Assembly (NCBI GenBank): GCA_000585015.1 | Contig: JFAX01000004.1 | Location: 194,342-228,133, forward strand | DNA: 33,792 bases | Source of the DNA: Candidatus Accumulibacter adjunctus | Lineage (GTDB): Bacteria > Pseudomonadota > Gammaproteobacteria > Burkholderiales > Rhodocyclaceae | Direction of reading: 5' to 3' | Shown: positions 16,982-33,792 of the stretch, piece by piece | Numbering within the stretch: position 1 is the stretch's first letter | How the letters are laid out: the number at the start of each line of letters is the position of its first letter | Made by a program: the position numbers and the translations under genes | Notes under the pieces: model-generated | The model's database searches: none | Seen by the model: only the letters and a program-made list of their open reading frames with translations | What the model was told of the DNA's origin: nothing

Positions 16982-19714
<2,733 letters not shown>

Positions 19715-19744
19715 AAAAACCCCTCTGGTGAGGAAAGAATGAAA

Positions 19745-19775
19745 GGGCACTTCGAACGGCATGTTCGCAGTGCCC
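19745..19775 (-). terminator. Hairpin with U-rich tail just before ppdK
   Basis: On the minus strand GGGCACT-G-CGAAC, loop ATGCC, GTTCG-A-AGTGCCC forms a 7+5 base-pair stem with one mismatch, followed by TTTCATTCTTTCC. It lies about 100 bases after the oxidoreductase operon and only about 15 bases before the ppdK ribosome site. It may terminate the upstream operon, or act as an attenuator or stabilising element in the ppdK leader. Confidence 0.6.
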
Positions 19776-19877: not shown

Positions 19878-21500
19878 CTATATCTCTTCCGCCTCCATCT
19901 TGATCGCGCCACAGGGGCATTCGGCGACGCACATGCCGCAGCCCTTGCAGTAGTCGTAATTGAACTCGAAGCGCTTGCCCGGGCCGAGCTTGATCACCGC
20001 GTTGTCGGGGCAGACGCCATAGCAGTTGTCGCATTCGAAGCAGTTGCCGCACGACAGGCAGCGGCGCGCCTCGAAGAGGGCGTTGTGCTCGTCCAGCCCG
20101 CCCTGCACCTCCTCGAAGGTCGACTGGCGACGAATGATGTCGAGCATCGGTCGCACCGTCTTCGGTGCGTCGGCGTAGTACCACGTGTTGAGGTTGTCGA
20201 AGGTCGCCACCTCCTTCTTCGGCGGCGCCACATACTCTTCGCCACGCAGCCAGGCATCGATGTTCCTCGCCGCCTTCTTGCCGTGGCCGATGGCGACCGT
20301 GACGTTGCGTTCGGCCGGCACCATGTCGCCGCCGGCGAAGATGCCGGCATGGCCGGTCATCATGTTGGCGTTGACCTGCACGACACCGTCGCTGACCTCG
20401 AGCCCGGGTACGCCTTCGAGCAGGCCGAGGTCGACGTCCTGGCCCAGCGCCAGCACCAGCGAGTCGGCCTCGATGGTCTCGTACTCGCCGGTCGGTTGCG
20501 GGAAGCCCTTGCTGTCGAGCGCCATCTTCTCGATCGTCAGCGACGATTCGTGCGCCTGCTTGATGGTCGACAGCCATTTCACCATGATGCCTTCCTGCAG
20601 CGCTTCCTCGACCTCGAAGTCGTGTGCCGGCATTTTTTCGCGCGTGCGGCGATAGACGATCAGCGGCTCGGCGCCCATGCGCTTGGCGGTGCGCGCGACG
20701 TCTATCGCCGTGTTGCCACCGCCATAGACGACGACGCGGCGGCCGAGGAGTGGCTTCTCCTCGCCCTCCATGCTGCGCAGCAGCGAGATGGCGTCGATGA
20801 TCTTCGCCGCATCACCGGCGGGAATCATCGCTCGTTTGCCGATGTGGGCGCCGACGGCGAGGAAGGCGGCGTCGAAGCCGCCGTCCTGCATCGTCGCGAG
20901 GATGTTCTCGACCTTGCTGCCAAGCTTCACCGTGACACCGAGATCGACGACCCGCTGCATCTCGGCTTCCAGCACCTCGCGCGGCAGGCGGTACTTGGGA
21001 ATGCCGAAGCGCATCATGCCGCCGAGCAGCGGCCCCGCTTCCTGTACCGTGACCCGGTGGCCGAGGCGGCGCAGGTGATAGGCGGCCGACATGCCCGAGG
21101 GGCCGGCGCCGACGATCAGGACGTGCTTGCCCGATTCGCTCGCCGGCGGCGTCAGCTTCCAGCCGCGCTTCAGCGCCTCATCGCCGAGGAAGCGCTCGAC
21201 CGAATTGATCCCCACCGGCGCATCGAGCTGGCCGCGGTTGCAGGCGCCCTCGCAGGTGTGATAGCAGACCCGTCCCATGATCGCCGGGAACGGGTTGTCT
21301 CTGGTCAGGTGTCGCCAGGCGCTTTCATAGTCGCCCGATTCGGCGTGGAACAGCCAGCCCTGGATGTCCTCGCCGGCTGGACACTGTTTGTTGCATGGCG
21401 GCAGGCGGTCGAGATAGACCGGCCGCGAGGTGCGCCAGGAGCCGGTGCGGTTGGCCAGCGATGAGCCGGGATCCAGCGTGATCGCAAAGGGTTTGTCCAT
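19878..21500 (-). CDS. GltD-like FAD/NAD(P) oxidoreductase fused to a ferredoxin (PorD-like) domain
   Basis: A 540-residue electron-transfer subunit. Residues 36-90 carry GltD-type cysteines (CNKQC, CYHTCEGACNRG). FAD binding is at GAGPSGMSAA (131-140), NAD(P) binding around VVVYGGGNTAIDVA, and the late FAD motif GIFAGGDMV. The C-terminal 63 residues form a ferredoxin with cysteines at 481, 484, 487, 490, 493 and 497 and again at 518, 521, 524 and 528. It follows the beta-subunit gene in a TGATG overlap. It probably replaces the separate delta (ferredoxin) subunit and links the oxidoreductase to NAD(P)(H), as the GltD-like subunit does in phenylglyoxylate:NAD oxidoreductase. That coupling is inferred. 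Confidence 0.87.
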   Translation of the reverse strand: MDKPFAITLDPGSSLANRTGSWRTSRPVYLDRLPPCNKQCPAGEDIQGWLFHAESGDYESAWRHLTRDNPFPAIMGRVCYHTCEGACNRGQLDAPVGINSVERFLGDEALKRGWKLTPPASESGKHVLIVGAGPSGMSAAYHLRRLGHRVTVQEAGPLLGGMMRFGIPKYRLPREVLEAEMQRVVDLGVTVKLGSKVENILATMQDGGFDAAFLAVGAHIGKRAMIPAGDAAKIIDAISLLRSMEGEEKPLLGRRVVVYGGGNTAIDVARTAKRMGAEPLIVYRRTREKMPAHDFEVEEALQEGIMVKWLSTIKQAHESSLTIEKMALDSKGFPQPTGEYETIEADSLVLALGQDVDLGLLEGVPGLEVSDGVVQVNANMMTGHAGIFAGGDMVPAERNVTVAIGHGKKAARNIDAWLRGEEYVAPPKKEVATFDNLNTWYYADAPKTVRPMLDIIRRQSTFEEVQGGLDEHNALFEARRCLSCGNCFECDNCYGVCPDNAVIKLGPGKRFEFNYDYCKGCGMCVAECPCGAIKMEAEEI

Positions 21501-22513
21501 CAGTTCGCCTCCTGGTCGAGCAGTCCGTACTTGCGAATGTTCTTGTCTGCCGCTGCCTGCAGGCGAGCGATCGTTTCCACCGCGGGTTTCTTGCCGAAGA
21601 GGTGCGCATAGCGTTTCTGCAACTTCAGATACTCCTCGACGGGTTGTGGCCGGCGGATCTTGAGAACGCCGGTGACCTCGCCATGTTCGGCCTCGAATAC
21701 CGGGAAGATGCCGGTTTCCTTGGCCAGCCGTGCGAGCTTGATCGTGTCCTGTGAGGCCGCGCCCCAGCCGAGCGGGCAGGGGACGAGGATGTGGATGTAG
21801 CGGGCGCCACGCAGCCCCATCGCCTTGGTGACCTTGTACTCCAAGTCGCGCAGGTCGGCGACGGTCGCCGTCGCGACGTACGGGATTTCGTGCGCCATGG
21901 CGATCGCCGGCACGAACTTGCCCTGGCCGAAGACATTGCCGGGTTCCGGACCGACCGGCATGGTGGTCGCCGTACGCGCCGCCGGCGGCGTCGCCGAACT
22001 GCGCTGGACGCCGGTGTTCATGTAACCGCCGTTGTCGTAACAGATGTAGAGCACGTCGTCGTTGCGCTCGAACATGCCGGACAGACAGCCGAAGCCGATG
22101 TCGGTCGTGCCGCCGTCACCCCCCTGGGCGACGACGCGGACGTCATCCATCTGGCCCTTCTGCCGCTTGACCTTGATCGCCGCGGCGATGCCGGTGCCGA
22201 TCGCCGCCGTGTTGCCGAACAGCGAGTGAATCCAGGGGATTTGCCAGGAGGTCTCCGGGTACGGCGTCGAGAAGACCTCGAGGCAGCCGGTGGCGTTGGC
22301 GGCGATCAGGCGCCCGCGGGCGGCGTTCATCGCTGCATCGATCGCGTAGCGGGCGCCAAGCGCCTCGCCGCAGCCCTGGCAGGCGCGGTGTCCCGAGTTC
22401 AGTGAGTTGGTCCGTTCGACGTTGGCCTGGACGCTGCGCTCTTCGGCGGAGAGCAGGCGGTTGCCGACGGTGAAGGTGCCGGTCTGGTAGAAATGAACGG
22501 GTTGGAAGCTCAT
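21500..22513 (-). CDS. porB: 2-oxoacid (probably pyruvate):acceptor oxidoreductase, beta subunit
   Basis: Thiamine-diphosphate-binding subunit, 337 residues. The iron-sulfur ligands begin with CQGC (45-48), with a further Cys at 77. The TPP/Mg motif GGDGGTTDIG (131-140) runs on to YDNGGYMNTGVQRS (159-172), typical of PorB. The enzyme interconverts a 2-oxoacid plus CoA with an acyl-CoA, CO2 and reduced carrier. Substrate choice between pyruvate and others such as phenylglyoxylate cannot be settled here; the adjacent ppdK favours pyruvate. It lies 11 bases after the alpha subunit. Confidence 0.9.
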   Translation of the reverse strand: MSFQPVHFYQTGTFTVGNRLLSAEERSVQANVERTNSLNSGHRACQGCGEALGARYAIDAAMNAARGRLIAANATGCLEVFSTPYPETSWQIPWIHSLFGNTAAIGTGIAAAIKVKRQKGQMDDVRVVAQGGDGGTTDIGFGCLSGMFERNDDVLYICYDNGGYMNTGVQRSSATPPAARTATTMPVGPEPGNVFGQGKFVPAIAMAHEIPYVATATVADLRDLEYKVTKAMGLRGARYIHILVPCPLGWGAASQDTIKLARLAKETGIFPVFEAEHGEVTGVLKIRRPQPVEEYLKLQKRYAHLFGKKPAVETIARLQAAADKNIRKYGLLDQEAN

Positions 22514-22524
22514 GGTCGTTCTCC

Positions 22525-23778
22525 TCAGCCGATGCGGGCGGCAACGACGCCGATGTCGCGCAGCATGCTCTCGGCTGCCGGACCCGAACGGCGCGTGGTG
22601 CGCTCACGTTCGAGCTGCTTGTTGACGACGTTCCAGTCGAGATCGAGGAACGTGAGGTGGCCGAGTTCGCCGTTGATCGCCTTGCTGAACAGTCCGCGCA
22701 GCGACTTGCGCGTGATGGCGCGGCCGCCGAGTCCAGCGACGACGGTGTGGCCGTGCAGTTGCAGGCCGGACATCGCCATGCGCACGTCGGTCGACAGGAT
22801 GCCGCCGATGCCGACCGCCAGGCTCTTCTCGAGGACCACCACGCGCTGCGCGTTCTGCAGTGCGGCACGGACGCTGTCGAGCGGGAACGGACGGTACGAG
22901 GTGATGCCGAGGACGCCGATCCGCTGCCCCTCCTGACGCATCTCGTCGACGGTGTCCTTGATCGTGCCGAGGACCGAACCCATGGCGACGACGACGATGT
23001 CGGCATCGTCAACCAGGTAACTGTGGGTCAGGCCACCGGAATCGCGGCCGAAGACCGCCTTGAACTGCTCGGCCAGTTGTGGAATCCGCTCGAGCGCCTG
23101 CATCTGCTTCGCGTGCGCCAGGTAACGGACCTCGGAAAAGGCTTCCGGTCCGACCATGGCGCCGATCGACACCGGTTCCTTCGGATCCAGCATCTGGCGC
23201 GGCTCGTATGGCGGCAGGAAGGCGTCGACCTGCTCCTGAGTCGGTACGTCCACCCGCTCGTAGGCGTGCGTCAGGATGAAGCCGTCCATGCACACCATCA
23301 CCGGCAGGCTGACCTCCTCGGCGAGCTTGAAGGCCTGGATGTGCAGGTCGAGCGCCTCCTGGTTGGTCTCGGCGAACAACTGGATCCAGCCGCAGTCGCG
23401 CTGCGACAGCGAGTCGGAGTGGTCGTTCCAGATGTTGATCGGTGCACCGATGGCGCGGTTGGCAACCGTCATGACGATCGGCAGGCCGAGGCCGGCAGCG
23501 TTGTATACCGCCTCGACCATGAACAGCAGGCCCTGCGAGGCGGTGGCGGTGTAGGTCCGGGCGCCGGTGGCCGACGAGCCGATGGCGACGCTCATCGCGG
23601 CGAACTCGGACTCGACGTTGATGAACTCGCAGTCGGCGACCTCGCCCGCCTTGACCATCTCGCCAAGGCCTTCGACGATGTGCGTCTGCGGCGAGATCGG
23701 ATAGGCGCAGATCACCTCCGGCCGACAGAGCGCGACCGCTTCGGCGACGGCGTGTGAACCCTCGGTCTGTTTAAGCAT
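22525..23778 (-). CDS. porA: 2-oxoacid (probably pyruvate):acceptor oxidoreductase, alpha subunit
   Basis: A 417-residue subunit carrying the pyrimidine-binding and domain II regions. AYPISPQTHIVEGLGEM near the N-terminus is the PorA signature for substrate and CoA handling. GARTYTATASQGLLFMVE and the C-terminal transketolase-like region (VVVLEKSLAVGIGGIL) follow. The ATG at MLKQTEGSHAVAE is chosen because earlier in-frame residues are the antisense-like tail of the upstream gene. It overlaps the gamma-subunit stop by 8 bases, so the two are translationally coupled. Confidence 0.91.
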   Translation of the reverse strand: MLKQTEGSHAVAEAVALCRPEVICAYPISPQTHIVEGLGEMVKAGEVADCEFINVESEFAAMSVAIGSSATGARTYTATASQGLLFMVEAVYNAAGLGLPIVMTVANRAIGAPINIWNDHSDSLSQRDCGWIQLFAETNQEALDLHIQAFKLAEEVSLPVMVCMDGFILTHAYERVDVPTQEQVDAFLPPYEPRQMLDPKEPVSIGAMVGPEAFSEVRYLAHAKQMQALERIPQLAEQFKAVFGRDSGGLTHSYLVDDADIVVVAMGSVLGTIKDTVDEMRQEGQRIGVLGITSYRPFPLDSVRAALQNAQRVVVLEKSLAVGIGGILSTDVRMAMSGLQLHGHTVVAGLGGRAITRKSLRGLFSKAINGELGHLTFLDLDWNVVNKQLERERTTRRSGPAAESMLRDIGVVAARIG

Positions 23779-24367
23779 GTGCAGTCTCCCCGTGCCGCGC
23801 GTGCGCGACCTCATCGACGACGAACTGGTAAGCCTCGCTGGCGGCAGCGACGTTGTTGCTCGCCACCTTGTCGGAGAACTTGGCATTGATCGCCTGGATC
23901 ACCGATTCCAGCCGGATGACTCCCGAGGCGGCGGCGAAACCCGCCAGCAGCGGCACGTTCGGCATCGGCCGGCCGACATGTTTGCGGCTGAGGTCGGTGG
24001 CTGGTACCGTGCATAGGCGATCCTGCGGCCAGTCGCGGACATAATCACCGAGGCCCAGTTCGTCGAAGCTGCGGCTGGTATTGATCAGGATGTAACCATT
24101 CTTCTTCAGGCCGCTGAAGACGTCGACCTGATAGAGCAGCGTGGGATCCTGGATGATCAGCGCGTCCGGTTCCATGATCGGCTCGCGCAGGCGGATCTCC
24201 TTGTCGGCGATGCGACAGAAGGCGACGACGGGGGCCCCGGTGCGTTCCGAACCGAAACTCGGGAAGGCCTGAGCGTGGCGGCCCTCTTCAAAAGCAGCAA
24301 TCGACAACATCTCGGCAGCCGTCACCACGCCTTGGCCGCCGCGACCGTGTATGCGGACCTGGAACAT
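23771..24367 (-). CDS. porG: 2-oxoacid (probably pyruvate):acceptor oxidoreductase, gamma subunit
   Basis: A 198-residue subunit with the family start MFQVRIHGRGGQGVVTAAEM, then FPSFGSERTGAPVVAFCRI and DPTLLYQVDVFSGLK. It is the first gene of the operon gamma-alpha-beta-GltD/ferredoxin and has a strong GGAGGAAT ribosome site. In this enzyme family the gamma chain binds CoA and helps shape the acceptor site. No standalone ferredoxin-like delta gene follows; that domain is fused to the last gene. Confidence 0.92.
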   Translation of the reverse strand: MFQVRIHGRGGQGVVTAAEMLSIAAFEEGRHAQAFPSFGSERTGAPVVAFCRIADKEIRLREPIMEPDALIIQDPTLLYQVDVFSGLKKNGYILINTSRSFDELGLGDYVRDWPQDRLCTVPATDLSRKHVGRPMPNVPLLAGFAAASGVIRLESVIQAINAKFSDKVASNNVAAASEAYQFVVDEVAHARHGETAHA

Positions 24368-25694: not shown

Positions 25695-26753
25695 TCAGGC
25701 TCGCCGGGGAATCAGCACCGTGTAGTCGAGATCGAGAAGTACTCCCGCCTCATGCGTACCGTCGGCCGTCTTGTACGGAAAGTTGGTACACGGCTGGTCC
25801 TTGGTCGCCACGGTGCGCAGGCGCAGCGCGCCGACGTCGCTGCGCCCGGGCAGCGCCAGCGGCGCGATGACTTCCGTCCACGCATAGATGGTGTCGCCGG
25901 CGAAGGCCGGGCTGACATGCCGGCCGCCATTGATGGCGGCGATGGTGAAGGCATTGGCCAGCCCGTTGAACGACAACGCACGCGCCAGGCTGAGGATGTG
26001 CCCGCCATAGACGACGCGTCGCCCGAAACGCCCGCCGCGCTCGCTCTGCTGGTTGAAATGGACGCGCGACGCGTTCTGGTAGAGGCGAGTGGCCAGCATG
26101 TGTTCGCCTTCTTCGATGGTCACGCCATCGACGTGATCGATGCGCTCGCCGGCGGCATAGTCTTCCCAGAGCTCGTTGCTGCCGGATAGCGAAGTGTCGT
26201 ACTGGTTGAGGCGGATTCCCGCCGGAACGACCAGTTCGCCGACATCGATCGCGTCGGGGAGTTCGGGAACGCAGGTCGGCGGGGCCGGCGACTGCGGATC
26301 GCGTTTGTGCACCATCACCCAGCGGCAGTACTCGAGGGCGATCTGTCCGCGCTGGTTGACGCCGCACGACCGGACATGGACGATGCCCGACCGGCCGTCG
26401 CTGTTTTCCCTGAGTCCGATCACCGTCGAGTCAGCGCTGAGTGTGTCGCCCGGATAGACCGGGTGGCCGAAACGGCCGCCGGCGTAACCCAGGTTGGCGA
26501 TGGCGTTGAGCGAGATGTCCTGTACCGTGCGCCCGAATACCATGTTGAAGGCGAGGATGTCGTCGACCGGCGCGCGTGGGAAACCGAGGCTGTGGGCGAA
26601 GGTATCGGCCGAGTTGGTCGCGAAGCGCGAACCGGTCAGCGCCGTGTACAGGGCGACATCGCCTTCGGTGATCGTCCGCGGCGGCGCGTGCGCGATCTTC
26701 TGGCCAACCTGGAAGTCTTCAAAGAAGTTGCCGAGTCTGTTCTTTTCACTCAC
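25695..26753 (-). CDS. mch: Mesaconyl-C1-CoA (2-methylfumaryl-CoA) hydratase
   Basis: Interconverts (2R,3S)-beta-methylmalyl-CoA and mesaconyl-C1-CoA. The 352-residue protein consists of two MaoC-type hot-dog domains. It has NFFEDFQVGQKIAHAPPRTI and ALTGSRFATN early, HPVYPGDTLSADSTVIGL in the middle, and GGHILSLARALSFNGLANAF and HVSPAFAGDTIYAWTEV in the second half, all typical of Mch. It starts at a GTG: GGAGG lies 7 bases upstream, and the family-like MSEKNRLGNFFEDF begins there. It is last in the smtA-smtB-mct-mcl-mch run, 33 bases after mcl, which supports the assignment over a generic MaoC dehydratase. Confidence 0.93.
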   Translation of the reverse strand: MSEKNRLGNFFEDFQVGQKIAHAPPRTITEGDVALYTALTGSRFATNSADTFAHSLGFPRAPVDDILAFNMVFGRTVQDISLNAIANLGYAGGRFGHPVYPGDTLSADSTVIGLRENSDGRSGIVHVRSCGVNQRGQIALEYCRWVMVHKRDPQSPAPPTCVPELPDAIDVGELVVPAGIRLNQYDTSLSGSNELWEDYAAGERIDHVDGVTIEEGEHMLATRLYQNASRVHFNQQSERGGRFGRRVVYGGHILSLARALSFNGLANAFTIAAINGGRHVSPAFAGDTIYAWTEVIAPLALPGRSDVGALRLRTVATKDQPCTNFPYKTADGTHEAGVLLDLDYTVLIPRRA

Positions 26754-26786
26754 TGCATGTCCTCCCTCTGCCGTTGATCTTGTGTG

Positions 26787-27830
26787 CTACAGGCCATAGG
26801 CGGCGGCGAGTTCCGGGTCGCGCCGGGCGACCAGTCGCGCCAGATCGACGATGACCTTCGCCTGTTTCCAGGTGGCATCGTCCTGCATCTTGCCGTCGAT
26901 CGTCGCCACGCCGCTGCCGTCAGGCATGGCCTCGAGGATACGCTTGGCGAAGAGGACTTCCTTGATCTCGGGGCTGAAAACGCGCTTGGCGATCGCGATC
27001 TGGTTGGGTGCCAGCGACCAGGCTCCCGAGCAGCCCATCAGGAAGGCATTGCGGAACTGCGCTTCGCACGCGGCTTCGTCCTTGAGATCGCCAAACGGCC
27101 CGTAGAACGAGCGGAGCCCGTGCGCGACGGCGGCGTCGACCATGCGCGCGACCGTGTAATGCCAGAGGTCCTGCTGGAAGAAGGCGCGCTGATCGTGACC
27201 CGCCTCGACATCGGCGAGGACGCCGTAGCCGGGATGACCACCGCCAACCCGCGTCGTCTTCATGCCGCGGGATGCGGCCAGGTCGGCCGGGCCGAGGCTG
27301 AGGCCATGCATGCGCGGGCTGGCGCCGCAGATCGCCTCGACGTTGCTCACCCCCTGCGCGGTCTCGAGCAGTGCGTGCAGCAGGATCGGCTTGCGCACCG
27401 AGTACTTCGCCTCGAGCAATGCGACATACTGATCGACGAAATGGATGTCCCAGGGTCCCTCGACCTTGGGAATCATGATGACGTCGAGCCGGTTGCCGAC
27501 ATGGCGGATGATCTGTTCGAGGTCGTCAAGCAGCCACGGGCTGTTCAGCGCATTGACGCGCACCCACATGGCCGTGTCGCCGAAATCGTGCTGGCTCAAC
27601 AGTTCGATGAAACCGGCACGCGCCGCCTCCTTGGCGTCGATGGGGATCGCGTCCTCGAGATTGCCGCACAGGACGTCGCACTGGCGGGCTGTCTCCGGCG
27701 CCTTGGCGCGAATCTTCTCGATGTGCGGCGGAAAGAAGTGGATCATCCGCTCCGGCCGTACGGGCAGTTCGCGCAGGGGTTGCGGCGCACCGATGGCGAG
27801 CGGTTTGTAGAAATGGACGGGCAGTTTCAT
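26787..27830 (-). CDS. mcl: Malyl-CoA / beta-methylmalyl-CoA / citramalyl-CoA lyase
   Basis: CitE-like TIM-barrel lyase. It cleaves malyl-CoA to acetyl-CoA and glyoxylate, condenses glyoxylate with propionyl-CoA, and in the trifunctional form cleaves citramalyl-CoA to acetyl-CoA and pyruvate. The 347-residue protein has LEDAIP (Glu59, Asp60), Arg91 in WVRVNAL, and metal ligands Glu156 in LLETAQG and Asp183 in [11 protein letters not shown]. Length and ligand numbering agree with my memory of the Chloroflexus trifunctional enzyme. Whether it accepts citramalyl-CoA cannot be proven by eye; co-location with mct and mch argues that it does. GGGGAAA precedes the ATG. Confidence 0.93.
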
Positions 27831-27896
27831 GGCGTTTCCCCTGGTGGCAAGAAGGCGTGTGGATGCAGCGGCAGGATGGGGCCGGTGGCCGCGACG

Positions 27897-29117
27897 TCAG
27901 GCCGGCCCGGCGACGATGCGCGCGTCGTGCAGGCGGCCAACCTCGGCCTCGCTCAAGCCGAGGATGTCGAGCAGGATCTCGTCGGTGTGTTCTCCGAGTC
28001 GCGGTGCCGGCATCGGCGGCAGGCGCGGCACGCGACTGAAGTCGAGTGGCGTTGCCGGCATCAGGTAGGAACCGATGCCCGGTTGCTCGACGAGCGAGAA
28101 CATCGGGTTGTCGGTCGAACAGTCGGGGTCGCGGGCGATCGTTTCACGGACGCTGCGGTACGGACCCCAGGTGACGCCATGCGCATCGAGCGTCTGCGCC
28201 GCCTCGGCGAGCGTACGGGCGTGGAACCAGGGTTCGAGCAGGGCGGCGATCTGCTGCCGCGCGCGATAGCGGTTGCCTTCGTCTTCGAGGTCGAGGCCGA
28301 GGCGGGCGGCGAGCTCGGCGATCGCCTGCCGCAGGCCGGTCGCCTTCAGCAGGCGGTGCCACTGCATGGCCGTCAGGCCGACGATCATCAGTCGCTTGCC
28401 GTCGAGTGTGCAGAAGTCGCGGCCGAAGGCGCCATAGAGATAGTTGCCCTGCCGCGGGCGGTCACCGTCATTGACCATCACCTCGGCCAGCATGCCGAAA
28501 TTGCCGAGCATCGCCAGCGCCACGTCCTTCAGCGCCAGACGGACGAGCTGGCCTTCGCCGCTCAGCCGCCGATGCCGCTCGGCGGCGAGCAGGCCGACGG
28601 CGATCATCTGGCCGCTGATGAAATCCCAGGCGGGAAAGACGTGATTCACCATCTCCGGCGAGCTGATCGGCCCGGTCATCATCGGCAGGCCGACCTGCGG
28701 GTTGAGCGTGTAGTCCACTTCCGAGCTGCCATCACGGCGGCCACAGAGGTTGACCATGATCAGATCCTCGCGCTGCGCCTGCAGTGCCTCATAGGCCAGC
28801 CAGCCCCTGGCCGGGAAGTTGGTGCTGAAGAGCCCTGCCTGCTCACCCGGCGCGCAGATCAGCCGGGTGAGCAGTTCCTGCCCGCGGGGAAAGCGGAAGT
28901 CGACGACGATCGAGCGCTTGCCCTTGTTCAGCCCGGCCCAGAACAGGCTGTGCCGGCCATCGAGGGTCAATGGCCAGCGACCCTGGTCGAGGCCGCCGCC
29001 CGGCGGGTCAAAGCGGATGACCTCGGCGCCGAGCTGTGCCAGCGTCATCCCGCCAAGCGGCGCGGCGACGAAAGCCGAGCCCTCGACGACCCGCAAACCT
29101 TTGAGAATTCCCTGCAT
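27897..29117 (-). CDS. mct: Mesaconyl-CoA C1-C4 CoA transferase (2-methylfumaryl-CoA isomerase)
   Basis: Family III CoA-transferase that moves CoA within one molecule, turning mesaconyl-C1-CoA into mesaconyl-C4-CoA. The 406-residue length matches Mct. It lacks the usual family III LGDY motif; its aspartate appears instead in VFPAWDFISGQ at Asp165, the position I recall for the Mct nucleophile. Other features are LRVVEGSAFVAAPLGGMTLA and FDPPGGGLDQGRWP, distinct from the two CoA-transferases upstream. An AAGGAG site precedes the ATG. It sits between smtB and mcl. A generic CaiB-like transferase is the alternative, made unlikely by context. Confidence 0.9.
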   Translation of the reverse strand: MQGILKGLRVVEGSAFVAAPLGGMTLAQLGAEVIRFDPPGGGLDQGRWPLTLDGRHSLFWAGLNKGKRSIVVDFRFPRGQELLTRLICAPGEQAGLFSTNFPARGWLAYEALQAQREDLIMVNLCGRRDGSSEVDYTLNPQVGLPMMTGPISSPEMVNHVFPAWDFISGQMIAVGLLAAERHRRLSGEGQLVRLALKDVALAMLGNFGMLAEVMVNDGDRPRQGNYLYGAFGRDFCTLDGKRLMIVGLTAMQWHRLLKATGLRQAIAELAARLGLDLEDEGNRYRARQQIAALLEPWFHARTLAEAAQTLDAHGVTWGPYRSVRETIARDPDCSTDNPMFSLVEQPGIGSYLMPATPLDFSRVPRLPPMPAPRLGEHTDEILLDILGLSEAEVGRLHDARIVAGPA

Positions 29118-29138
29118 CGTTCGCTTGACTCCTTCGTT

Positions 29139-30368
29139 TCAGATGACGCGCTTGCGCCGCAGATCGTCGATCGCGGACGCGTCGAGGCCGAGCAGGTCGC
29201 TCAGCACCTCGTCGGTATGCTGTCCCAGGCGCGGTCCGAGGTGCCTGATGCGTCCGGGGGTCAGCGACAGCCGCGGCAGCACGGATGGCACGATGACCGT
29301 CTCGCCGATGTCCGGCTCGTCGATCGCGACCAGGTTGCGCCGGGCATGGAACTGACGGTCACCAAAGATGTCGGCGATGCTGTTCAACGGGCCGGCTGGC
29401 GCGCCGGCGGCGAAACAGCGGTCAAGGATCTCGTCGCGGTGCAGCGAGCCGCACCAGTCGCGGACGATCTCGTTCACGTCGTGGCGGTTTTCCAGGCGTG
29501 TCTTCTGATCGCCGTAGACGTGCGGCGCCGCCAGCTCGGGTCGTCCCATGGCCGTCGTCAGCCGTTCGAAGAGCTTGTCGGTGACGCACGAGATCGCCAC
29601 CCACTTGCCGTCATCCTTGGTCGGGAAGTGGCCGTGCGGACAGGCGAAATCGTTGTGCGTCGGCCCGTGCCGTTCGCGCACGCGTCCGAACATGCCGTAA
29701 GCCGGCGCCAGTTCGTCGGTGCAGCGAAACACCGACTCGTACAGCGCGGCGTCGATGTACTGCCCCTGGCCCGTGCGGTCGCGGTGGCGCAGGGCCATCA
29801 GGATGCCGAGGCAGCCGTAAAGGCCGGTGAGGTAATCGCCAAGCGTCGTCGATCCCGGTGTCACCGGGGTGCCGCGCGGCATTCCGGCGAGGAAGGCGAT
29901 GCCGCCGACGGCGTGCGCGACGCGGGCGAAACCGGGCCGGTCGCGATAGGGTCCGGTCTGGCCATAACCGGTGACGCGCAGCATGATCAGCCGTGGGTTG
30001 ATCTGTCGCAGCACTTCCCAGCCAAGTCCCCACTTCTCCAGCGTGCCAGGGCGGAAGTTCTCGCACAGTACGTCCGACTTCTCGATCAGCCCCTTGAACA
30101 GGTCGACCCCTTCGGGCAGGTGCAGGTCGAGCGTCACCGACTTCTTGTTGCGCGCTTCGCTCAGCCAGGCGAGCGTGTCCTTGCGCTTGGTCGGCGTGCC
30201 GAACTGGCGCATCGGGTCGCCACCGTGGGGATTCTCGACCTTCAGCACCTCGGCGCCGAACTCGCCCAGGATGCTGGCGCTGTACGGCGCGGCGATCACT
30301 GTCGCCGCGTCGATGACACGGATGCCGGCGAGCGGCAGGCGGCTGGCGGCGTCTTCGGTCGGGGGCAT
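29139..30368 (-). CDS. smtB: Succinyl-CoA:(S)-malate CoA-transferase subunit (SmtB-like)
   Basis: Family III CoA-transferase that, with its paralogue upstream, transfers CoA from succinyl-CoA to malate; in Chloroflexus the enzyme also accepts citramalate. The 409-residue protein has [49 protein letters not shown], and [11 protein letters not shown] with the probable nucleophile Asp178. The C-terminal [16 protein letters not shown] region follows. It begins 24 bases after smtA and ends 21 bases before mct. The SmtB label rests on its shorter N-terminus; A and B could be swapped. Confidence 0.86.
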
Positions 30369-30392
30369 GGCCGTCCTCGCTGTGCTGTCGGT

Positions 30393-31721
30393 TCAGATGA
30401 TCCTGCGCTGCCGCAGGCGCCTGATCTCCTGCGCCGGGATGCCGAGCAACTCGCGCAGGATCTCGTAGGTGGCGTTGCCAAGGGGCGGCCCGAGGTTGGA
30501 GATTCGGCCCGGGGTCTCCGACAGGGTGGGAACGACGCCCGGGATGACGACTTCGCCAAGTCCCTCCTCGCACAGCCGGGCGAGGTTGCCGCGTGCCTGA
30601 AAGTGTTCGTCCTCGAAGATGTCGGCGATGCTGTTCAGCTTGCCGACAGGTACCTCGCCGTCGACGCAGCGTCGCATCACCTGCTCGCGGGTCAGCGAGC
30701 CAACCCATTCGATCACCAGCCGGTTGACCTCCTCGCGTGCCGCCAGGCGCTGGCGCTGGTTGCCGTAGCGATCCGCTGCAGCCAGTTCGGGTCTGCCCAT
30801 CACGGCAGCGAAACGTTCGAACATCCGGTCGGTGGTGCAGGCAATCGCCACCCATTTGTCGTCGACCGTGCGAAAGTGGCCGTGCGGCACGGCGACGAAG
30901 CTGCCGGCACCTTCGCGCTCGCGGACCTTGCCGAAGAGGCCGTAGGCCGCGGCGATCTCGTCCATCTGGCGGAAGACCGCCTCGTAGATGCCGATGTCGA
31001 TGATCTGCCCTTCGCCGCTGACTTCGCGATGGCGCAGCGCGAGCAGGATGCCGATCGCCCCATAGAGGCTCGACAGGTAGTCGCCCAGCGGTACCGTACC
31101 CGGGACCACTGGTGTTTCTCCCGGGAAGCCGGCGAGATAGGACAGCCCGGCGAAACCGTGCGCGATATGGGCAAAGCCCGAGCGGCGACGGTACGGTCCG
31201 CTCTGCCCGTAGCCCGAGACACGCAGCATCACCAGGCCGCGATTGGCCTGCCGCAGCTCCTCCCAGCCGAGTCCCCACTCTTCCATCGTCCCGGGGCGGA
31301 AGTTCTCGATCAGGACGTCGGACTTGGCGACGAGCTTCAGGAACAGCTCGACTCCTTCGCGCTGCCGCAGGTCGAGCGTCACCGACTTGCGGTTGCGACC
31401 TTCGCTGAGCCATGCCAGGGTCGCGTCGTGCCGCTTCGACGCCGTGCCGAAGCGACGCATCGGATCGCCGGCGACCGGATGTTCCACCTTGAGAACCTCG
31501 GCGCCGAACTCGCCGAGGATGGATGCCGCATAGGGTCCGGCGAGGAAGGTGCCGACGTCGATGACGCGCAGGCCGCTCATTGGCAGTCGGCTGCCGCCCA
31601 GCGAGTTCTCATGCTCTTCCTCGGACGACGTCGGGCTTGCCGCGGTCGGCCCGTCGCTCGCGCCTCCTGTCACCTCTGCCTGCTGACGGACATCCTTCGT
31701 CGAAGACGGCTCCCCTGCCAT
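30393..31721 (-). CDS. smtA: Succinyl-CoA:(S)-malate CoA-transferase subunit (SmtA-like)
   Basis: First gene of the cluster, 442 residues, closely similar to the next gene (shared [29 protein letters not shown] and LNSIADIF). The nucleophile is probably Asp214 in VPLGDYLSSLYG. Unlike SmtB it has about 45 extra N-terminal residues rich in Ser, Thr, Glu and Gly before the family start LPMSGLRVIDVGTF. The ATG at MAGEPSST is supported by GGAGGGAGG at good spacing. The frame stays open for 942 more bases upstream, but that stretch translates to arginine/alanine-rich sequence with no family features and is judged non-coding. Confidence 0.86.
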   Translation of the reverse strand: MAGEPSSTKDVRQQAEVTGGASDGPTAASPTSSEEEHENSLGGSRLPMSGLRVIDVGTFLAGPYAASILGEFGAEVLKVEHPVAGDPMRRFGTASKRHDATLAWLSEGRNRKSVTLDLRQREGVELFLKLVAKSDVLIENFRPGTMEEWGLGWEELRQANRGLVMLRVSGYGQSGPYRRRSGFAHIAHGFAGLSYLAGFPGETPVVPGTVPLGDYLSSLYGAIGILLALRHREVSGEGQIIDIGIYEAVFRQMDEIAAAYGLFGKVREREGAGSFVAVPHGHFRTVDDKWVAIACTTDRMFERFAAVMGRPELAAADRYGNQRQRLAAREEVNRLVIEWVGSLTREQVMRRCVDGEVPVGKLNSIADIFEDEHFQARGNLARLCEEGLGEVVIPGVVPTLSETPGRISNLGPPLGNATYEILRELLGIPAQEIRRLRQRRII

Positions 31722-31869
31722 TACCGATCCTCCCTCCTGCGCCTCGCGTGAGCCAGCCATCGCCGCCCGCTCTCGCCGCCATCCCGCGGCTCCGCTGTGA
31801 TCGTCGCAGGCCGGCTCCGCGCTGTCCAGATCGCCTGGCGTGTGCCCTCCGGCGCCAACGAAGCCTCGC

Positions 31870-32158: not shown

Positions 32159-32681
32159 GGACAGCGACATTTGCGAGTCGAAGGTGGAACCTGACCGGCG
32201 AACAAGAAGCCAGGGAGCAGCCTGTGGTTGTCGGGCAGGCGCGCCTCGTCCCTGCTTCTCGAGAAGGCCCGGCTGGCGTCATCCGGCCGCCGCCGCGCGC
32301 CCGGCCTGCAGCCATTTGTCGGCTTGTCCCGCCTCTGGCAGCCGGCCCGGCCCACCCGTTGCGTTGCGCCGATTCCCCTTGCTGGCGCAGCTGCCGCTTG
32401 CCTGTCCCGGCGCAGTGTCCGTCGCTGCCGCGGCGGCCGAATCGGCCGCCTGCGGCCCGCGCCGGGTGATCGCCTGCGCCGGCGGGCGGACATCGCGGCC
32501 CCGCCGGGGCGGCAACGCGCTTGCCGCATTGGTCGAGGCGACCGGCAAGCCAGCAAACACCCTTTTCCGATCCGCAAACCCTCGCCCGGTAGCCGGCGAG
32601 GGGCTGTTCGTGCGTCGCTGGCGCGACTGGCACGCGAATGACGTATTCCCCTGACTTCAGCAACGATTACGGAGGCAACAC

Positions 32682-33792
32682 ATGAAGCTCACGCTGACCC
32701 CTGACGAACTGAACGCCTGTTATGGCGAGCTGCACGAGGCGAATGCAGCCTTCAAGGGGCATTACCCCGCGGATTCCTCCGAGCGGCAGCCGGTTCACAC
32801 CGTATACGGCGGCGCCAACCTGTTCAAGGCTGGCTTTGCCGGCAAACTCGGCGAGGTGGCGCTCAAGACCCTCGACACCTATGCGCCGAACTACCACGTC
32901 TTCGCCCGCGTTCTCGGTTTGCCGGGTGCCGAGACCCTGCCCAGCAACCCGCTCGAAATCGACAGCCTGACGCGCGCGCTGGAAAGCAGCCCGGAGCAGG
33001 TGCGCGAGATCAAGCAGGCGGCGTGGCTCGCGTTCACCGTCTACAACCGGGTGCTCAAGAAGCTGCGCACGGAGCCCATCGAGGACAACCGCATCGACTT
33101 CGAGGATGGCTACGGCAATCGGCCGGACGACGAGGAGGATGGTCACGCCGTCGCCGCGGCGGACGAGGTCGCCAAGGGGATGAGCGAGAACGTCCTCTCG
33201 CCGTTCATCGGCATTCGCATCAAGACCTTTTCCGACGAGTGCAAGGTCCGTTCGATCCGCACGCTCGACATCTTCCTCACTCGCCTGGCCGAGAAGACCG
33301 GCGGCCGTTTGCCGGAGAACTTCATCGTCACCCTGCCCAAGGTGACAACTCCCGAGCAGGTCGCAGCCTGCGCCGGCATCCTGGCGAAGCTCGAAGCACG
33401 GCTGGGTTATCCCAAGGACTCGCTGCGCATGGAAATCATGATCGAAACGACGCAGTCGATCATCAACCACAAGGGCGAGAATACGGTGCCGCTGCTCGTT
33501 GCCGCCGCTGCCGGCCGCTGTCGGTCGGCAATTTTCGGGACCTACGATTACACCGCGTCGTGCAACATCACGGCGGCACACCAGAGCCACACCCACCCGT
33601 CGTGCGACTTCGCCCGTCACGTGCTGCAGGTCAGCCTGGCCGGAACCGGCATCACGATCAGCGATGGCGCGACCACCAGCATGCCGATCGGGCCGCACAA
33701 GGCGGCTGCTGGCTCTGTCCTCTCGCCACAGCAGATGGACGAGAACCGCGCCGTCGTGCATGGTGCCTGGAAGCTCCACTACGACAACATCA
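32682..33792 (+). CDS. DUF6986-type CitE-like aldolase/lyase superfamily protein (3' truncated)
   Basis: The first 370 residues of a protein that runs off the window. It shows the layout of the HpcH/HpaI-citrate lyase barrel: FEDGYG with Glu141-Asp142 (like LEDAIP in Mcl), GIRIKTFSDE with an arginine, LPKVTTPEQV, MIETTQS with Glu255 and FGTYDYTASCNI with Asp289. These last two align with the metal ligands of Mcl. This architecture fits the DUF6986 family, of unknown reaction; I am moderately sure of the family name. A GGAGG site precedes the ATG. It is divergent from the 3-hydroxypropionate cluster, which makes a CoA-thioester or C-C lyase role tempting but unproven. Confidence 0.8.
   Translation, partial: MKLTLTPDELNACYGELHEANAAFKGHYPADSSERQPVHTVYGGANLFKAGFAGKLGEVALKTLDTYAPNYHVFARVLGLPGAETLPSNPLEIDSLTRALESSPEQVREIKQAAWLAFTVYNRVLKKLRTEPIEDNRIDFEDGYGNRPDDEEDGHAVAAADEVAKGMSENVLSPFIGIRIKTFSDECKVRSIRTLDIFLTRLAEKTGGRLPENFIVTLPKVTTPEQVAACAGILAKLEARLGYPKDSLRMEIMIETTQSIINHKGENTVPLLVAAAAGRCRSAIFGTYDYTASCNITAAHQSHTHPSCDFARHVLQVSLAGTGITISDGATTSMPIGPHKAAAGSVLSPQQMDENRAVVHGAWKLHYDNI

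Follow-up and report, generated by a model that had tools for sequence, protein, structure and literature searches.

Within the window, a 33,792-nucleotide stretch of a Candidatus Accumulibacter adjunctus contig, five genes (smtA-smtB-mct-mcl-mch) lie on the minus strand at 25695-31721. The first-pass annotation read these as one tight operon for SmtA, SmtB, Mct, Mcl and Mch, enzymes of the Chloroflexus 3-hydroxypropionate bi-cycle. The intergenic gaps of 24, 21, 66 and 33 bases are as it gave them, and the predicted enzyme names hold by profile, structure and identity matches. Mct is the intramolecular mesaconyl-CoA C1:C4 transferase, with mesaconyl-C1-CoA as its substrate. The product of mct (27897-29117) reaches 834 bits with TIGR04253, above its cut-off of 725; its best solved relatives are 7xkg (734 bits) and 8apq (730 bits), and Asp165 and Leu43, residues named in PMC9813914, are present. 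Placement of Mct in an unrelated CaiB transferase clade, which the annotation had offered as a test, is ruled out by the score above the equivalog cut-off. The product of mcl (26787-27830; 347 aa) is predicted to be a malyl-CoA/beta-methylmalyl-CoA/citramalyl-CoA lyase of the Chloroflexus type, matching 6kin (677 bits) and 4l7z (663 bits) with the next match at 191 bits. All seven active-site residues named in the available text of PMC3832036 are kept, with the numbering shifted by one, including Asn58, given there as a marker of the Chloroflexus type. The mch gene (25695-26753) encodes a protein with PF19315 and PF01575 domains, matching 4e3e (549 bits) and 8hgn (443 bits).

The smtA (30393-31721) and smtB (29139-30368; 409 aa) products are CaiB/family III proteins (PF02515). 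There was no Smt model among the NCBIfam matches for the window proteins, and their naming rests on 78 % and 75 % identity, respectively, to their positional counterparts in Chloroflexus islandicus (locus L025) and on the shared gene order. No close solved relative was found for SmtB, the best structure match being 219 bits; an LGDY motif is present, the Asp of which we take to be the candidate catalytic residue. The longest open reading frame for smtA starts at 32663, however the start was set at 31721, since identity with two relatives runs from residue 1-2 on and AGGAGG precedes this position. A plus-strand frame of 1655 aa (26784-31751) overlies the operon; rather than a gene, it appears to be an open antisense frame across high-GC genes.

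Downstream of mch, on the same strand, are genes for pyruvate metabolism. These include porGAB (21500-24367), which by profile matches encode a pyruvate-type 2-oxoacid:ferredoxin oxidoreductase: porG (23771-24367), porA (22525-23886, longest open reading frame) and porB (21500-22513). TIGR02175 scores 200 bits (cut-off 81), and the PorA-type and PorB-type profiles reach 466 and 318 bits, below their cut-offs of 550 and 405. A GltD-like NAD(P)-binding flavoprotein with a PorD-like ferredoxin end (19878-21500, minus strand; NF009410, 774 bits against 516; TIGR02179, 70 bits against 60) is probably the fourth subunit of the oxidoreductase. A pyruvate, phosphate dikinase gene follows (16982-19762, minus strand; TIGR01828, 1338 bits against 843). 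In the Accumulibacter/Propionivibrio group, 14 out of the 24 further loci, several of which end sooner, also have it downstream of mch.

On the other side of smtA, a CitE/HpcH-like DUF6986 protein is encoded on the plus strand from 32682 to 33791 and past the window end (PF22484, 419 bits; PF03328, just 20.7 bits, below the cut-off of 25). Its structure model has a mean pLDDT of 48.5, too low for use. The gene continues in positions 226000-229045 of contig C4 (locus L087) and is the first of a divergent ethylmalonyl-CoA (EMC) operon; it is followed by mcd, which is cut by the contig end. In close relatives this operon (mcd, ecm, meaB, ccr and a phaJ-like gene) sits between meh and smtA, in the order DUF6986-mcd-mch2-ecm-meaB-ccr-qor-phaJ-like. 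In the genome investigated here meh is outside the window, at 143755-144582 of contig C9, with 67 % identity to C. islandicus, therefore the five window genes alone cannot reach citramalyl-CoA. Simple loss of Meh is ruled out by this copy, and its removal to a distant site is ruled out for the clade by four genomes (G005, G008, G013 and G020) with meh on the contig of mct, behind the EMC operon. Contig C4 ends within mcd and C9 within ecm, and both ends map onto three relatives with about 3.1 kb between them in each. We infer that the smtA side and the meh side join across an assembly gap of this size, which would contain the remainder of mcd, mch2 and the first part of ecm.

The Ccr of this genome scores 566 bits against TIGR01751 (cut-off 378) and carries a C-terminal CBS pair. 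The part of Mcd before the contig end is 99 % identical to its orthologue in close kin (locus L126), which matches (2S)-methylsuccinyl-CoA dehydrogenase 8ciw (620 bits) and 6es9 (318 bits), followed by a generic dehydrogenase (237 bits). The same relative has a 672-aa single-chain B12 mutase beside ccr and meaB. This scores 524 bits against the methylmalonyl-CoA mutase model, below the cut-off of 876, with no Ecm model among the matches, and is named Ecm by gene context only. There is no ethylmalonyl/methylmalonyl-CoA epimerase among the EMC operon genes, and the operon holds its own MaoC hydratase and CitE-like protein.

The genes so identified, with Ecm named from context, co-occur across the genus and are linked in many of its genomes. 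In 28 Candidatus Accumulibacter genomes, Mct is present in 27 (26 above the cut-off and one split gene) and Meh in 26. Smt is the more dispensable part, with a true SmtA orthologue in 14 genomes against Ccr in 23. SmtA is absent from 13 of the 27 genomes with Mct, and 12 of these 13 have Ccr. Four genomes have Mct without Ccr: G014, which is 83 % complete, and G017, G024 and G025, which also have Smt. In G003, Mct, Meh, SmtA and Ccr are all absent together. Mct and Ccr are on one contig, 7.4-20.6 kb apart and in several gene orders, in 16 out of the 23 genomes with Ccr. In G027, the contig of Ccr also carries smtA and meh, and at locus L001 (contig C11 of G015, by mct position) mcd and mch2 adjoin mct. 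Ccr is on a different contig from mct in four of the 23 (G001, G002, G016 and G022); the mct contig in G001 is 230 kb long. The 14 scored loci have four gene orders, with three changes on the Mct tree, the minimum for four states. No EMC gene was seen in the available stretch of 11 further Accumulibacter/Propionivibrio-group loci.

The kinship with Chloroflexus claimed for the five genes holds. The second cycle of the Chloroflexus bi-cycle has the same six genes (smtAB, mct, mcl, mch and meh) at 65-83 % protein identity, and from sequence the predicted SmtA, SmtB, Mct, Mcl, Mch and Meh are the glyoxylate-assimilating half of that cycle. In C. islandicus (L025) the order smtA-smtB-mct-mcl-mch is the same and meh is divergent beside smtA, whereas the clade of the window has the EMC operon separating smtA from meh; Ccr is absent from C. 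islandicus (G028), unlike the window genome. A partial bi-cycle is known in Candidatus Accumulibacter, Kentron, Thiosymbion, Competibacter and Riegeria (PMC6593406), with the same genes; the window itself is Candidatus Accumulibacter, and the available text of that paper says nothing of a link to an EMC operon. The five genes alone are ordinary for Candidatus Accumulibacter and the gene set is already in print. They had been called rare rather than new; the second part stands, however within the genus they are not rare. Ccr, Mcd, the B12 mutase, MeaB, hydratase and PhaJ-like genes are shared with the EMC pathway of Rhodobacter and Methylobacterium, but here they are joined to mct and meh, with a predicted exit to acetyl-CoA and pyruvate, and Ccr has the CBS pair.

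At a probability of roughly 0.55, the favoured reading of the genes and their linkage is a hybrid route in which the EMC enzymes feed Mct, Meh and Mcl, taking acetyl-CoA and CO2 to acetyl-CoA and pyruvate. Within a composite cluster completed by the EMC operon and meh, the five window genes would form the downstream half. The PhaJ-like hydratase would convert (R)-3-hydroxybutyryl-CoA, from acetyl-CoA or stored PHB, to crotonyl-CoA, which Ccr would carboxylate and reduce to ethylmalonyl-CoA; Ecm would give methylsuccinyl-CoA and Mcd mesaconyl-C1-CoA. As this is both the product of the EMC enzymes and the substrate of Mct, direct onward flow is possible: Mct would form mesaconyl-C4-CoA, Meh citramalyl-CoA, and Mcl acetyl-CoA and pyruvate. 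The net reaction would be acetyl-CoA + CO2 + 2[H] to pyruvate, ferredoxin-free, and the nearby dikinase could pass pyruvate to PEP for glycogen. Smt, where present, would make malyl-CoA, and the same enzymes could alternatively take mesaconyl-C1-CoA to propionyl-CoA and glyoxylate. Substrate flow, direction and physiological role are all deduced from the genes. The broader proposal, that Accumulibacter and its Propionivibrio kin have a natural, oxygen-tolerant and ferredoxin-free reductive citramalyl/ethylmalonyl-CoA pathway from PHB or acetyl-CoA and CO2 to pyruvate, and on to glycogen via the dikinase, with Ccr gated by an energy-sensing CBS tail, is put forward tentatively, at slightly less than even odds.

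An in silico design for such a reductive module appeared in 2021 (PMC10521678), its reaction energy given as -39 ± 9 (unit presumed kJ/mol). The reaction sequence from acetyl-CoA to pyruvate in the available text is the same; here it would correspond to a natural, conserved gene cluster. In open-access PMC, the phrase 'reductive citramalyl-CoA' was found only in that paper. The methylsuccinate branch of itaconate degradation also ends with mesaconyl-C4-CoA, citramalyl-CoA, and acetyl-CoA plus pyruvate (PMC12290011), however its dehydrogenase yields the C4-CoA ester directly and therefore no Mct or Ccr step is described in the part of that paper available.

Several observations fit other uses of these genes. 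In a partial 3-hydroxypropionate bi-cycle, propionyl-CoA and glyoxylate, the latter perhaps from isocitrate lyase or from malate via Smt and Mcl, would be co-assimilated to acetyl-CoA and pyruvate, with the adjoining EMC operon a separate system. All six genes are present for this, and a partial set has been suggested to assimilate organic substrates in Kentron and, by works that the paper cites, in Chloroflexus and Thiosymbion (PMC6593406). G017, G024 and G025 carry Smt and Mct without Ccr, and outside the genomes named Accumulibacter 17 out of the 20 with both Smt and Mct have no Ccr. This reading leaves unexplained, however, the lasting linkage of two order-rare modules through several rearrangements, and the 13 out of 27 Mct genomes without SmtA, 12 of them with Ccr, and is on balance doubtful. 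The first-pass annotation, with Meh and the EMC operon outside its view, favoured co-assimilation of propionate, acetate and glyoxylate or redox balancing; co-assimilation of glyoxylate with propionate may occur but is probably just part of the picture. The annotation also argued against autotrophy, which holds: although the glyoxylate-assimilating half is complete, the genome search that it proposed for malonyl-CoA reductase, part of the Chloroflexus bi-cycle, found none in any of the 28 genomes (C. islandicus query, E 1e-20, best 24 candidates at most per genome, a set without a positive control). The closed, autotrophic bi-cycle was set aside on this basis and is highly improbable.

The linkage could also reflect sharing of Mch and Mcl with the canonical EMC ending, from mesaconyl-C1-CoA to propionyl-CoA and glyoxylate, with Mct and Meh along for historical reasons. 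In the EMC pathway mesaconyl-C1-CoA is next hydrated and beta-methylmalyl-CoA is cleaved (PMC12290011), and the pathway is taken as a source of propionyl-CoA in Accumulibacter (PMC12604563), which counts against the hybrid route, and in Contendobacter (PMC8956781). Such borrowing is unlikely, as Mct and Meh are present in 27 and 26 out of 28 genomes against just 14 with SmtA, and hydratase-like and CitE-like genes already belong to the EMC operon. The same two genes cut against the hybrid route as well, since with them the EMC operon may not need the Mct cluster at all, and the por genes in the window are a predicted ferredoxin-dependent route for pyruvate. Anaerobic use in reverse is improbable: glycogen-derived pyruvate and acetyl-CoA would pass through citramalyl-CoA and mesaconyl-C4-/C1-CoA to propionyl-CoA and glyoxylate, redox-neutral and for PHV storage. 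Reversibility of the lyase (PMC3832036), the open issue of propionyl-CoA and redox balance in Accumulibacter (PMC12604563) and the similar direction of the citramalate cycle (PMC8307300) are in its favour, but sequence cannot tell direction and reverse use offers no reason for the adjoining Ccr, Ecm and Mcd.

If mesaconyl-C1-CoA does exit via Mct and Meh, as in the hybrid route, process models of carbon and redox may miss a route from PHB or acetate to pyruvate and glycogen. Accumulibacter is a model organism of biological phosphate removal from wastewater. Its EMC genes are transcribed beside the glyoxylate shunt, with their interplay and roles stated to be unclear (PMC12604563); in the available text EMC figures solely as a supplier of propionyl-CoA and glyoxylate, and a search of the main text gave no word starting mesaconyl, malyl or 3-hydroxypropionate. 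A pathway published as artificial would then have a conserved cluster of genes in nature, a source of ready-made enzymes for synthetic CO2-fixing modules, and would join the glyoxylate, EMC, methylaspartate and citramalate cycles as a further way of assimilating acetate.

At the level of the order, 399 genomes were sampled (E 1e-120, the best four candidates at most scored per genome). Ccr was found in three and Mct in eight, with only the Mct of the window genome above the cut-off, and both together only in the window genome; the seven other genomes with Mct-like genes were without Ccr and the two others with Ccr were without Mct. In 34 genomes not named Accumulibacter, hand-picked from 80 Mct loci, Ccr is present in 11 out of 14 without Smt against 3 out of 20 with Smt (Fisher p 0.0003), however the association comes down to just two independent pairs on the tree (sign test p 1), and two loci, L042 and L043, have nearly the same Mct, probably a mis-bin. 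The Smt-less lineages are therefore only suggestive of an EMC-Mct pair, and were dropped as independent proof. Next to mct in these lineages, ccr, ecm and mcd were not seen at 38 % identity or above; some have a MaoC hydratase or CitE-like lyase beside mct.

A search of plasmids for Mct returned 23 records, every one below 60 % identity. The phylogeny against Chloroflexus that had been proposed for all five proteins was run for Mct, with 79 of the 80 loci and the window (quick method, midpoint root). Gain from Chloroflexi is possible on this tree: the 25 Accumulibacter/Propionivibrio-group rows are together (SH-aLRT 99) and those of Chloroflexus and Roseiflexus form their own set, but the row adjacent to the 25 comes from a Chloroflexaceae bin (L035, support 80).

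The five genes smtA-smtB-mct-mcl-mch, which belong to the glyoxylate-assimilating half of the 3-hydroxypropionate bi-cycle, lie at 25695-31721 on the (-) strand with gaps of 24, 21, 66 and 33 bases, the position and spacing given in the first-pass annotation. Mct scores 834 bits against a curated cut-off of 725, while the best matches of Mcl (6kin/4l7z) and Mch (4e3e/8hgn) are solved enzymes, far ahead of all others. The names SmtA and SmtB rest on gene order and on identity to Chloroflexus islandicus (78 % and 75 %, respectively). Active-site residues described in the structure papers for Mct (PMC9813914) and Mcl (PMC3832036) are present in the proteins of the window. Located 3′ of the operon on the same strand are genes for a pyruvate-type 2-oxoacid:ferredoxin oxidoreductase and a pyruvate, phosphate dikinase, with a DUF3616 gene on the opposite strand in between. 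The Mct is 95-96 % identical to those of four Accumulibacter records (L001, L002, L003, and L051), with which it forms one group in the Mct tree (support 96).

The sixth gene, meh, is absent from the window, and Meh is required to reach citramalyl-CoA. Where another locus has both genes, in Chloroflexi too, meh generally starts next to smtA and points away from it, or does so with mct if smtAB is missing. In this genome (4.41 Mb, 61 contigs, 93 % complete), meh is on another contig, C9, 6.4 kb from its end. The window occupies positions 194342-228133 of contig C4, which stops 912 bases past it, within mcd, and C9 stops within a B12-dependent mutase gene. Both ends map onto L126 (Ca. A. iunctus), L127, and L131, leaving approximately 3.1 kb between them in each of the three; the ethylmalonyl-CoA (EMC) operon is interrupted by the assembly gap.

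The gene order in L126 is mcl, mct, smtB, and smtA (all -), followed by DUF6986, mcd, mch2, ecm, meaB, ccr, qor, phaJ-like, and meh (all +). The crotonyl-CoA carboxylase/reductase, Ccr, scores 555-566 bits (cut-off 378) and has the same aligned N, Y-E, and H residues as the solved enzyme 4gi2, positions which we take to be the CO2 pocket. Mcd scores 620 bits to the (2S)-methylsuccinyl-CoA dehydrogenase 8ciw, and the mch2 product, a MaoC protein, is only distantly related to Mch, with 123 bits to 4e3e. From its neighbouring genes, we infer that the B12-dependent mutase is Ecm; no Ecm model was among the profile matches of the L126 mutase. The first gene of the operon, DUF6986 (window 32682-33791 (+); L126:6426-7865), keeps FED, IRI, MIETTQ, and YDYTAS motifs resembling the CitE/malyl-CoA lyase site, and its product may be a lyase or a malyl-CoA thioesterase; its predicted structure (pLDDT 48.5) is too low in confidence for use.

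Across the 28 genomes of the genus set, Mct is over the cut-off in 26. In one more, G026, it is split into two overlapping frames of 500 and 291 bits (G026:C12:52634-53843), due to either a frameshift or a sequencing error. The remaining genome, G003 (93 % complete), has none of Mct, Meh, SmtA, and Ccr. Meh is found in 26 genomes (25 at ≥64 % identity, G016 at 48 %), Ccr in 23, and true SmtA in 14, 11 of which have Ccr. There is no Ccr in four of the genomes that have Mct. SmtA is missing from 13 of the 27 Mct genomes, a few of these absences perhaps being false in drafts (G015, 72 % complete; G002, 88 %), and Ccr is present in 12 of the 13, the sole exception being G014 (83 % complete). It is Mct, Meh, and Ccr that form the retained core, and not Smt with its activation of malate. 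In Ca. A. conexus (G005), there is a mere Smt fragment 5′ of mct, a 234-aa ORF with 70 % identity to SmtB (L003 9000-9900/L131), and no match to SmtA; SmtAB looks to be decaying there.

In 16 of the 23 genomes with Ccr, one contig carries both Ccr and Mct, at distances of 7.4-20.6 kb and a median of 11 kb. Besides these, smtA and meh share the Ccr contig in G027, and mcd and mch2 adjoin mct in L001 (taken as G015 contig C11 from the mct position). Ccr and Mct are on separate contigs in G001, G002, G016, and G022, and in the genome of the window linkage probably extends across the assembly gap. Four placements of the EMC genes were seen: between smtA/mct and meh, past meh in line, past meh inverted, and 3′ of mch, the last in Propionivibrio (L024). 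The Accumulibacter/Propionivibrio group has 25 loci, and order was scored in 14 of them, with the window scored as presumed and L010 as the first type despite no meh in its stretch; the available stretches of the other 11 hold no EMC genes. The 14 scored loci require three order changes on the Mct tree, the minimum for four orders. Among 399 sampled genomes of the order (E 1e-120, up to four candidates scored per genome), Ccr was found in three and Mct in eight, only the genome of the window exceeding the Mct cut-off and only this genome having both. Based on linkage across several gene orders and this rarity, the two modules, rare around this genome, therefore stay together through rearrangements in the Accumulibacter/Propionivibrio group. 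Outside the genus, the association of Mct with Ccr is not independent of kinship.

Each half is already known in Accumulibacter, according to reports on the bi-cycle enzymes (PMC6593406, PMC9813914) and on the EMC pathway (PMC12604563). No published report of their joining was found in the open-access PMC literature, seen as partial texts; it may already have been published elsewhere or in text beyond these portions. The EMC product is mesaconyl-C1-CoA (PMC12290011), the compound on which Mct acts (PMC9813914). If both gene sets are made, crotonyl-CoA could be converted to acetyl-CoA and pyruvate, requiring only an epimerase in addition; the phaJ-like gene would link this route to PHB and the dikinase would link it to PEP. 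How far, when, and in which direction carbon would flow along it is presumed here. The same reaction module was designed in PMC10521678, where acetyl-CoA + HCO3- + 2 NADPH + quinone yield pyruvate + quinol + CoA by oxygen-insensitive reactions with no direct ATP use, 1.25 ATP being counted for the electron step, and a reaction energy of -39 ± 9 (unit presumed to be kJ/mol). Malonyl-CoA reductase was found in none of the 28 genomes with the Chloroflexus islandicus protein as query (E 1e-20, up to 24 candidates scored per genome), in a search made without a positive control.

In the Mct tree, Competibacteraceae-type loci (L077, L080, and L074) form a deep split (branch 0.66, support 100), and despite this have smt genes near mct. 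One pair of almost identical Mct sequences, L042 and L043, comes from a 'Chloroflexota' (Anaerolineae) bin and an alphaproteobacterial bin, therefore one of the two contigs is probably mis-binned.

Ccr has a C-terminal pair of CBS domains both on C9 (L086:11995-13746) and in L126 (13876-15624), and a similar tail recurs in 10 of 14 genomes that have both Mct and Ccr but do not bear the name Accumulibacter. None of 43 plasmid Ccr records covered 80 % of the CBS-tailed protein (best coverage among those listed, 71 %), and no report of crotonyl-CoA carboxylase together with a CBS domain was found in the open-access PMC literature. This Ccr may be an energy-sensing carboxylase. In an alphaproteobacterial bin, two CBS-tailed ccr genes are in tandem (L138/L147; G044:C50:37965-41100).
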